Shown piece after piece: positions 5,680-20,370 of a stretch of DNA of 35,874 bases. Source of the stretch: Clostridiales bacterium DTU070. Lineage in GTDB: Bacteria > Bacillota > Clostridia > DSM-8532. The DNA lies in NCBI GenBank assembly GCA_001513105.1, contig LFSH01000078.1:1-35874 (forward strand), in the 5' to 3' direction. Under the pieces are notes generated by a model. It was not told the origin of the DNA. It saw only the letters and a program-made list of their open reading frames with translations, and ran no database searches. The translations under genes and the position numbers were made by a program. Each line of letters opens with the position of its first letter. The stretch's first letter is position 1.

Positions 5680-6141
5680 TCAGCCCGTTTTACTGCTTAT
5701 CAGCGTCTCAATGTCTGCATATCGTTTAGTCATGGATTCCGCATGTTCAATCAGCTCATTCAGGTACATTTTGTATAAGTCCGTATCATTAATGATATAC
5801 CTGGCATCCAGTATACGTTCGGTCAGCGAACAGTATTTTCTCAGCACCTCGGGTTCTTCCAGCACCTTGTTGTACCTGTCCTTAGCAAGAACCAGCTTCA
5901 ACAGGGACGGAATCTTCACAAGGTAGTTTTCTTCACGGCTTTCTATTCCCAGCAGCATGGCCAGATCAATATCCAGCTTGTTTATTATTCTCAGAAGAAT
6001 TTCAAGATTGGGATTCTTTTTAACGCCGTTTTCAATCTGCGACAGGTATCCAGGTGAAATATCCAGTTCCTTTGAAAATCGCTCAGCGAAATGTTCTTTT
6101 CTTCCCGTTTTGCCCTTATTATTTCACCAACCTTGATTTCC
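5680..6141 (-). pseudogene. XRE-family HTH regulator, split by a frameshift
   Basis: The gene starts at an ATG at 6141 with AGGGGGG 6 bases upstream and reads MEIKVGEIIRAKREEKN, the first helix of a Cro/C1-type helix-turn-helix. Around 6071-6076 (TTTT on the minus strand) the frame is lost. Adding one T gives a continuous domain with SPGYLSQIENG, the recognition helix, then LEILLRIINKLDI and about 90 further residues in the frame ending at 5680. Restored length would be about 153 residues. The missing base lies in a homopolymer, so either a real single-base deletion or a sequencing error is possible. The C-terminal domain (residues about 65-153) is charged and unrecognised. It is not a metallopeptidase. 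As read, the product is non-functional. Confidence 0.8.
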
Positions 6142-6242
6142 ATGATAACCCCCCTGTTAATGCATGCAGTTGATGTCATAAACGCATAATGGCTCTTGCC
6201 ATATCTGTCTTTATATCTTTATATCTTTCTCCAATAATTTTA

Positions 6243-10335: not shown

Positions 10336-10392
10336 CAGCGGCAGCACAAGCATCAGGCATTGAAACTTAACCAGGGATTTCTCTTTATTCTC

Positions 10393-10436
10393 AACAGGCG
10401 GCGGGTTTATAAACTCCCGCTTGTTGTTTTTATGCG
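10393..10436 (+). terminator. Terminator after the PBP1A gene
   Basis: An imperfect stem (AACAGGCGGCGGGTT with AACTCCCGCTTGTT) is followed by GTTTTTATG on the plus strand. It sits between convergent genes. Confidence 0.7.
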
Positions 10437-10452
10437 GATAAACACGAACTGC

Positions 10453-11286
10453 TTATTTCAGCAGATAGGTCAGCTTGATTCTGTCGGCAATGGTGGAAAT
10501 GAATTCTGAATTTGTCGGAGGGACATTTTTTCTGTCCTCGGTGTATGTAAAATACTGGCCAAGTTTCTGCGGGTTGCCTCTCTGCCATACCTTCTGAATA
10601 GCATTCCGTATTCCCCTCTCAACTTTTCCGGGCGAGGTTTTAAAGTATTCTGCTATCATTGGGTAAAGTTTTTTTGTTATTGGAATTTTACCGCGATCAC
10701 TAAGGACGTTTTCGACTATTGCCTTCTGCAGGTAGGGATAGCCGCTCAGATGGGCTGGCACATCAATATCCCGCAGGGCTTTTTTTACATAGATTTCTAC
10801 ACATTCGCGCAGAGTTTGCTTTTTCACAGCTTTGACCTCAGGAATGCCTGATTCCATGTTAACGTTTCCGATATATGGTTTACCCGGCTGTTCATAATCG
10901 CTGTAAATCTGCATGATCCTTTTAGGCAGCAGATTCATGTCGAAGGGTTTAAGTATGTAATACTCCGCACCAAGGCTTAATGCTTTTTTTATGTATTTAT
11001 CATTTCCTATTGCTGTCAGCACGATTATAACGGGTTTTTGATTCTCATGCCTTTCCCTGAGCTCTTCAAGAACAGCAATGCCATCCTTTAGCGGCATTAC
11101 AAGTTCAAGTATGACTATATCGGGTTTTTTTTCAGCAATCAACTGTAATGCAGTTTCACCGTCATAAGCCTTTCCGGTTACATCGAATTCAGGAATGGCT
11201 TTGAGACTGTTCTCCACCTCCGCTGCAAAATCTTCGTTATTGTCAACGATGATAATGCTTATTTTACCGTTCACATTACTCACCAT
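10453..11286 (-). CDS. Spo0A-family regulator with a degenerate receiver site
   Basis: Predicted 277-residue protein of Spo0A layout: receiver domain (residues 8-125), linker, and Spo0A_C DNA-binding domain (about 150-277) with DIDVPAHLSGYPYL, ITKKLYPMIAEYF, the recognition helix KVERGIRNAIQKVW and PTNSEFISTIADRIKL. In the receiver, Thr91 and Lys113 (ILKPFD) are kept. The phospho-accepting Asp is Glu61 (VILELVMPLKDG; codon GAA), and the acidic pair is D15-N16 instead of Asp-Asp. Classical phosphorylation is therefore doubtful. Genuine spo0A normally lies by spoIVB. Here it is alone between PBP1A and a kinase gene, so it is probably a paralogue. The ribosome site before the ATG at 11286 is weak. 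A GTG four codons in, after GGTGAG, is an alternative start. Confidence 0.88.
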   Translation of the reverse strand: MVSNVNGKISIIIVDNNEDFAAEVENSLKAIPEFDVTGKAYDGETALQLIAEKKPDIVILELVMPLKDGIAVLEELRERHENQKPVIIVLTAIGNDKYIKKALSLGAEYYILKPFDMNLLPKRIMQIYSDYEQPGKPYIGNVNMESGIPEVKAVKKQTLRECVEIYVKKALRDIDVPAHLSGYPYLQKAIVENVLSDRGKIPITKKLYPMIAEYFKTSPGKVERGIRNAIQKVWQRGNPQKLGQYFTYTEDRKNVPPTNSEFISTIADRIKLTYLLK

Positions 11287-11361
11287 GCTTTTATAATTTT
11301 TATATAATATATGAGCCTCTGCTCTTTTTTACTATTAAATGCTATTATCTCTTTTATATCT

Positions 11362-11391
11362 ATTATATTCCATTTTGTACAGCTAAAACAA
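11362..11391 (-). promoter_or_regulatory. Promoter of the Spo0A-family gene
   Basis: TTGTTT (11386-11391) and TATAAT (11362-11367) are 18 bases apart on the minus strand, giving a leader of about 70 AT-rich bases. Confidence 0.7.
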
Positions 11392-11505
11392 TACTCAGCT
11401 TCGGGTATTAAGACAAAACAGCAGGCTATGAACTGTAAAGCATATATTATCGAAAAATAACGGTTTTTCAGAAAAAGCATCAGCAGTAAGATATCGGTAT
11501 ACCGG

Positions 11506-11553
11506 GAAACAGGTACCCCGGTGCCTGTAAAGAACCGCCGGGGTACCTGTTTC
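11506..11553. terminator. Long perfect hairpin, GGTACC type
   Basis: A perfect 16-bp stem (AAACAGGTACCCCGG region, 11506-11521, with 11538-11553) with a 16-base loop lies 12 bases after the kinase gene stop. The U-tract is only TTTC on the minus strand and TTTCGGGTTTT on the plus strand, so termination may be weak. It shares ACAGGTACCC/GGGTACCTGT with two other hairpins in the window. Confidence 0.65.
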
Positions 11554-11564
11554 GGGTTTTGAAC

Positions 11565-19227: not shown

Positions 19228-20370
19228 ATGCTGAAAAGAACAGCTGTTCTCGTATTGGGATTAATTATGCTTGCTACACTTACAGCATGCCCTGACAAGG
19301 AGCAGTCAGAGCAGCAGGATGATACCGAGATGATACCCAACACAATGCAGAAGGCGGCAGATGAACTGGAACAGATAATTACACTGCTGGGCGGTCCCTT
19401 GTTCAATGGGCGTGATAATATAGAACAGATGAAAAATGAGCAGATGCAAATGCTGTTTGAATCAATACAGAAATTCTCGCTTGGAACACAGGACAATGAG
19501 CAGATGAAAAACGACGACAACCCCGAAAGAGACGAACAGCAGCAGGAAGGCAGCAGGAGTGAAAAGCAGGAGAGCGAGGAAAGCGGACAAAGTGAAGATC
19601 AAAAAGACGCAAAGGATGAACAGCAAAAGGAACAGGAAGGCGAGCAGAACAAAGAGGAAAGCGCCGGTGGTTCTGATAAGGAAAAACCAGGCAGCGAAGA
19701 TGACCAAAATCTGAATCAGAAAGAACAGGAAATACAAAAGGAGAATTCGGGTGAAAAGGAGGATACGCAAAGACCCGGAATAACACATGACAAGACCTTT
19801 CAGTATGAAGACAGTCTTTTCGGCATCCCCCAGTGGCATGATGACAACTGGAAGATTATAAAGGTTCTGGCCGACGGTATGCATTTCACATGGAATAACC
19901 TGCAGCCCGAATTAATAAAAAAGGGAGTTGCCCAGACCCAGATTGAGAACTTCGGCAGGGCTCTCATTTCATTATCACAAAATGTAAATGCAAAAAACAT
20001 AGTTGAATCGCAGAACGCCGCTTTCCAGCTGTCACAGGCATTAGCCGATTTCCACAGCTACTACAAAACCGAAATCCCGGCAGAACTGCCCCGTATTTCA
20101 AGCGGGGTTACAGGCATCCACTTTGCCGTAAAGCAAAACAACTGGCCAAGGGCACAGGAGCTTGCAAACCAGCTTCAACAGGAGTTTGCAAAGCTCAAGG
20201 CAAGTATAGAGGACAACCAGACCCACATTTTTCAGATGCTGGAGTTTTCCCTTAATGATCTCTGCTCTGCAGTTTACAACCAGGATTCCGTGCTTGTAAT
20301 GATACGAACAAACCTGGTAAACACAAATATCCGCGAACTGGATGTAAGGCTGTCGCAAAAACAGGATTAG
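19228..20370 (+). CDS. Lipoprotein with Glu/Gln-rich linker, unknown function
   Basis: Predicted 380-residue secreted lipoprotein. The signal peptide is MLKRTAVLVLGLIMLATLTAC with a lipobox at LTAC and the lipidated Cys at residue 21. Residues 30-90 are helical. Residues 95-180 are a low-complexity hydrophilic stretch dominated by Glu, Gln, Lys, Ser and Asp, probably a flexible spacer. Residues 185-380 form a helical domain (FGIPQWHDDNWKIIKVLADGMHFTWNNLQPEL onward) that I do not recognise. It would sit on the outer face of the membrane. The start has GGGGTG upstream, rather weak. The 3' end is one base from the convergent purD stop, with no terminator between. Confidence 0.8.
   Translation: MLKRTAVLVLGLIMLATLTACPDKEQSEQQDDTEMIPNTMQKAADELEQIITLLGGPLFNGRDNIEQMKNEQMQMLFESIQKFSLGTQDNEQMKNDDNPERDEQQQEGSRSEKQESEESGQSEDQKDAKDEQQKEQEGEQNKEESAGGSDKEKPGSEDDQNLNQKEQEIQKENSGEKEDTQRPGITHDKTFQYEDSLFGIPQWHDDNWKIIKVLADGMHFTWNNLQPELIKKGVAQTQIENFGRALISLSQNVNAKNIVESQNAAFQLSQALADFHSYYKTEIPAELPRISSGVTGIHFAVKQNNWPRAQELANQLQQEFAKLKASIEDNQTHIFQMLEFSLNDLCSAVYNQDSVLVMIRTNLVNTNIRELDVRLSQKQD

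Follow-up and report, generated by a model that had tools for sequence, protein, structure and literature searches.

How can a Spo0A-type response regulator act once its receiver domain has lost the aspartate that accepts phosphate? The question is raised by a gene, here called spo0A2, in the window (the whole 35,874-nucleotide stretch of DNA that was analyzed). The initial annotation had described a Spo0A-like gene at this place; it is indeed intact and of the Spo0A type, but it lies on the minus strand, and translation of the plus strand over the same interval gives no open frame. The protein scored 246.6 bits against TIGR02875 spore_0_A in a profile search (cut-off 200), 106.2 bits against PF08769 Spo0A_C (cut-off 25), and 84.9 bits against PF00072 (cut-off 30.2), the receiver being recognized despite the absent acceptor Asp. 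AlphaFold gave a normal two-domain model (mean pLDDT 82, pTM 0.75), poor only at the start and in the linker, and Foldseek matched the predicted receiver to 1qmp, the phosphorylated Spo0A receiver (TMt 0.93), and the C-terminal domain to 1fc3. The features of the gene are collected in the table.

Table. Features of spo0A2 and its flanks, in window coordinates
Feature	Position	Strand	Basis and remarks
spo0A2, 277-aa Spo0A-type response regulator with aspartate-less receiver	10453..11286	-	intact ORF; TIGR02875, PF00072 and PF08769 matches
Receiver domain, residues 9-127	10906..11262	-	PF00072 over residues 11-124; AlphaFold pLDDT mostly 83-96; Foldseek best match 1qmp
Spo0A_C DNA-binding domain, residues 167-270	10477..10788	-	PF08769; 1lq1 and 1fc3 matches
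Acidic pair site, D15 (GAC, 11242-11244) and N16 (AAT, 11239-11241)	11239..11244	-	DD in canonical Spo0A
E61 (GAA), equivalent to D56 of B. subtilis Spo0A	11104..11106	-	alignment and codon read
T91 (ACA), conserved Thr/Ser of receiver pocket, kept	11014..11016	-	alignment and codon read
K113 (AAA), conserved Lys of receiver pocket, kept	10948..10950	-	alignment and codon read
Recognition-helix region TSPGKVERGIRNAIQKVW; canonical, TTPSRVERAIRHAIEVAW	10585..10638	-	paralogue lineage has G for S, N/G for H, Q/R for an invariant E, and K for V
Putative promoter, TTGTTT-N18-TATAAT	11362..11391	-	phylogenetic footprint, conserved in five orthologues/genomes; absent from consensus-scanner listing
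Likely terminator hairpin shared by convergent PBP1A and spo0A2 genes	10392..10425	.	presumed, as read from the sequence; absent from scan listing

The phosphorylation pocket is altered at two of its sites. Alignment to the PDB Spo0A chains 1dz3 and 9phz sets VDNNE of the window protein against (A)DDNR and LELVMP against LDIIMP. This alignment, the codon read, and a comparison of 123 distinct Spo0A-type proteins all bear out what was initially annotated, namely a D-N pair, Glu (GAA) at the acceptor, and retention of Thr91 and Lys113. The five pocket sites read D-D-D-(S/T)-K in 118 of the 123 proteins, and Glu occupies the acceptor site in the window protein only (1/123). The idea that Glu might be conserved in an orthologous clade did not survive, since all six orthologues (in genomes G001, G006, G012, G016, G011, and G005) have Asp, an outcome that the annotation had listed among its refutations; the Glu of the window protein itself is unaffected by this result. 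The acceptor codon is GAC or GAT in the four orthologues aligned by codon. The D-N pair is common to the window genome (G000) and G001, the one congener with the gene, only, the other orthologues that cover this part having D-D. Because D-N is shared with G001 and Glu is private to G000, the change of D to N is the earlier one and falls on the branch to the genus; that of D to E followed in this species. With Glu in one genome only, its maintenance by selection cannot be shown. Neither an acceptor Asp nor a full Mg site is left, and phosphorylation at this site would not be expected from the sequence; the independence from the phosphorelay that the annotation had proposed is in keeping with the natural reading of D-N plus Glu as a loss of phospho-control. 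The Spo0A of G028 (L025) is of the canonical type, but Glu replaces the first Asp of its acidic pair (VAEDN).

It is quite improbable, in our judgment, that codon 61 reflects a base-calling or assembly error, in which case the protein would have Asp there and D to N would be its sole genuine change in the pocket. The codon does differ from those of the orthologues by one third-position substitution (GAC or GAT to GAA) in a single assembly, and an HTH gene about 5 kb away is frameshifted, but the difference is a substitution and not a homopolymer indel, N16, for which G001 provides independent support, had already altered the pocket, and the assembly has a completeness of 99.95% and a contamination of 0.49%. 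The neighboring HTH_3-type regulator (5689-6149, minus strand) is split into two frames and intact in G001 (L139 4991-5476); it could be either a pseudogene or an assembly error.

The 2.89-Mb genome encodes exactly two Spo0A_C proteins. The other is a canonical Spo0A (C66:14097-14882; L145) with VADDN, VILDII, and the usual recognition helix, whose gene is flanked by those for a putative membrane protein and a methyltransferase, and the spo0A2 protein is about 40% identical to it. The window gene had been called a second copy on the grounds that it lies away from spoIVB. The conclusion was right, as the canonical gene, with its DD pair, Asp, and recognition helix intact, is present on C66; the positional argument fails, however, because the canonical gene does not adjoin spoIVB (on C7) either. 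Both SpoIVA and SpoIVB are present in the genome, which makes a sporulation program plausible.

Orthologues of spo0A2 were found in 6 of 31 other genomes of the family, those of G001, G006, G012, and G016 being 60-66% identical to the window protein and those of G011 and G005 51-53%. The seven members form one clade (support 100/100), and a canonical Spo0A accompanies spo0A2 in G000, G001, G006, G012, and G016; G011 and G005, which are less complete, showed none. The locus is conserved, with spo0A2 convergent with the PBP1A gene and followed by rlmL and then a nucleoside kinase gene, with one side each visible on the partial contigs of G005, G016, and G011. The gene between spo0A2 and the kinase gene in relatives had been considered as a lost partner kinase, and this candidate was rejected, since it encodes an RlmL-type rRNA methyltransferase. 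Although most relatives have it at this place, it is missing from 11287-11564 in the window and from the corresponding site in G001, and a search that had no positive control gave no other match in G000. The window has two further features: a GC-rich inverted repeat, GGTACCCCGG...CCGGGGTACC, at 11500-11550, downstream of the nucleoside kinase gene and matching no Rfam family, and a gene at 19228-20370 (plus strand) for a 380-aa protein that has no Pfam match and is found at the same place in G001, G006, G012, and G016 (47-69% identity).

The distribution of spo0A2 is patchy. The sister species G002 lacks it, its PBP1A and kinase genes being only 135 bp apart, and the congener G003 and other relatives are also without the gene. 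A tree of PBP1A and the kinase places G002 as the sister of G000 (89/93), so that at least three gains or losses of spo0A2 are needed, and the shared slot together with the scattered occurrence points most readily to an old gene that has been lost repeatedly. Partial samples of the class and phylum (391 and 398 genomes) gave no additional paralogue of this lineage, and no relative was found among viral contigs. A genome contig collection, from which close kin of the window may have been excluded, yielded only canonical-like Spo0As of at most 42% identity.

The absence of the gene from G002 and G003 means that it is dispensable and could be decaying in G000, with Glu61 a step towards loss of a second Spo0A that is no longer needed and retains little or no function. 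The pace of change fits such a course: identity between G000 and G001 is 64% for the paralogue and 90% for canonical Spo0A, so that the paralogue is by far the faster-evolving of the two. We nevertheless consider decay unlikely, because the frame is open over its full length, the promoter is conserved, and the two domains are equally conserved between G000 and G001 (72% for the receiver, 70% for the DNA-binding domain). Moreover, dN/dS is about 0.08 overall, the G000 branch (0.36) does not exceed the length of the Asp-bearing G001 branch (0.68), and a neutral G000 branch is rejected, although weakly (LRT 5.1, 1 df), selection on this branch being weakly resolved owing to saturated synonymous sites. 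Branch-specific dN/dS values for each domain were discarded for the same saturation, as the estimates lay at their bounds.

In the putative promoter, the -10 hexamer precedes the start codon by about 76 bases. Exact matches to the 0A box TGTCGAA number six in the window, versus 4.2 expected by chance, with none in the spo0A2 promoter, and we accordingly make no claim of autoregulation. TGTCAAA directly follows the -35 hexamer in G012 and G016, and the window gene is without it. Since the promoter is conserved in five genomes, control by synthesis is the simplest model.

The DNA-binding domain is changed throughout the lineage. The canonical helix pattern S-R-V-E-R-A-I-R-H-A-I-E-V-A-W becomes G-K-V-E-R-G-I-R-N-A-I-Q-K-V-W in the window protein, where Gln replaces a Glu that is invariant in 115 other sequences. 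In B. subtilis numbering, with SRVER starting at 210, the lineage-wide changes are S210 to G, H218 to N or G, E221 to Q or R, and V222 to K; residues 210-218 presumably include base contacts in the 1LQ1 complex. Near the C terminus, FGYT(I/V) has become F(T/I)(Y/H)x(E/G) across the lineage and FTYTE in the window protein, in the 231-240 segment that we take to contact sigma A. As the Asp-bearing orthologues carry the same helix changes, the helix was altered before the pocket decayed. The replacement of near-invariant helix residues throughout the lineage makes different or looser DNA targets likely and lowers the likelihood that spo0A2 simply shares the regulon of canonical Spo0A.

These changes bear on two further explanations, both anticipated by the initial annotation. 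If Glu61 were a phosphomimic, it would engage T91 and K113, lock the receiver on, and drive or repress normal 0A-box promoters without the phosphorelay. We regard this as rather improbable, given the altered recognition helix, the change of FGYT(I/V) to FTYTE, and the loss of the second acidic residue before Glu arose. Phosphomimicry has also been disproved for some aspartate-less receivers (PMC12632262), although Glu, the commonest replacement among them, partly activates some regulators (PMC12632262), the D52E form of C. difficile CmrR gains activity (PMC12548384), and the Thr and Lys are kept in the window protein. The K+2 residue of the window receiver is Phe, which favors the inactive form in CheY (PMC12632262); this argues mildly against a built-in active bias, and it weighs on the model preferred below as well. 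The other explanation, that spo0A2 is a dominant inhibitor that damps sporulation through competition or mixed dimers with canonical Spo0A, seems to us very improbable at only 40% identity to the canonical copy of the same genome and with a changed recognition helix. It draws on the architecture common to both copies, on the heterodimers of C. difficile CmrR and CmrT (PMC12548384), and on C. thermocellum second-copy mutants that differ in growth and sporulation-gene expression (PMC4890492, PMC3804516, PMC8303734).

We prefer, at slightly short of an even chance, a model in which spo0A2 encodes an accessory Spo0A that has turned into an aspartate-less receiver and is set by its amount rather than by kinases. 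Under this model, spo0A2 would be an accessory regulator of long standing, distinct from canonical Spo0A, that evolves quickly and has often been lost. Its Mg-binding pair would have changed from DD to DN ahead of the divergence from G001, and its acceptor from Asp to Glu in this species. What remains of the receiver would be a normal fold that retains Thr and Lys, the residues that sense the charge of the acceptor. The protein most likely binds DNA without phosphate, at sites that may overlap canonical 0A boxes only in part; its activity would be set by the amount made from the conserved promoter, and its role may lie in stress or in the transition from growth to stationary phase. More tentatively, at about one chance in three, a Spo0A-type regulator without kinase control and with its own DNA targets could represent an intermediate on the way from a duplicated developmental master regulator to a constitutive, dosage-set transcription factor. 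The pockets DD plus D, DN plus D, and DN plus E all occur in close relatives, a natural series of steps for losing phospho-control in a developmental master regulator, and the effect of each step can therefore be tested.

The window protein is probably an aspartate-less variant of a known second Spo0A rather than a new kind of protein. Seven genomes of family f54 each encode one canonical Spo0A and one divergent second Spo0A, and a branch supported at 99/99, on which long branches meet, separates canonical Spo0As from the window lineage, the f54 second copies, and the second copy of G282. The window lineage and the f54 second copies may well have a common ancestor, and both have AIGQD and an Asn where the canonical recognition helix has His. 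The f54 copies were likened to the second Spo0A of C. thermocellum (Cthe_3087 = Clo1313_0637) by its published identity figures: they are 43.6-49.6% identical to B. subtilis Spo0A, versus a published 49%, and 49-58% identical to their own canonical copy, versus a published 56%. The B. subtilis Spo0A sequence used in the tree and these comparisons is consistent with the Spo0A chains of the PDB. Divergence is much greater in the window lineage than in the f54 second copies, which keep DD and the acceptor Asp where the window protein has neither, show a parallel helix change (Q-K..N as against G-K..N), and lie at aroA rather than between PBP1A and a nucleoside kinase. An rlmL gene is near the second Spo0A in both families, about 2.6 kb away in f54. 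Also near an f54 second copy is a divergently oriented gene (L202 15995-16912) for a protein whose PF00072 receiver starts IDYSEYE and lacks the normal DD pair; a homologue was present in four of four f54 loci read.

In C. thermocellum, which has a canonical Spo0A and the second copy, deletion of the canonical gene abolishes sporulation, and three separate evolution experiments yielded mutations of the second gene: a premature stop in a hydrolysate-tolerant strain, and amino acid substitutions in an ethanol strain as well as in strains adapted to sugars (PMC4890492, PMC3804516, PMC8303734). Such repeated mutation suggests that the second copy may restrain growth or serve a stress response. Strain improvement of thermophilic, cellulose-degrading clostridia has repeatedly hit their second Spo0A, which the present comparison places in an evolutionary frame.

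With canonical Spo0A (TIGR02875; receiver 1qmp/1dz3, C-terminal domain 1lq1 and 1fc3), the window protein shares the two-domain architecture, the fold, the Thr and Lys, and the PTNSEFI motif, and it differs in lacking the acceptor Asp and the second acidic residue and in its altered recognition helix and FGYT segment. Its pocket has close counterparts among pseudo-receivers, in which a change of the second acidic position to Asn and of the acceptor to Glu are both common, Glu partly mimics phosphate in some receivers and not in others, and on/off switching in bacteria is described as unknown, in a review where Spo0A goes unmentioned (PMC12632262). CmrT of C. difficile and AtvR of P. aeruginosa likewise combine a D-to-E acceptor and a damaged DD pair with a retained Thr and Lys, and they are inferred to act without phosphorylation (PMC12548384). 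The three differ in output: CmrT belongs to the OmpR family and AtvR to the NarL family, whereas the window protein joins this kind of receiver to a Spo0A_C domain.
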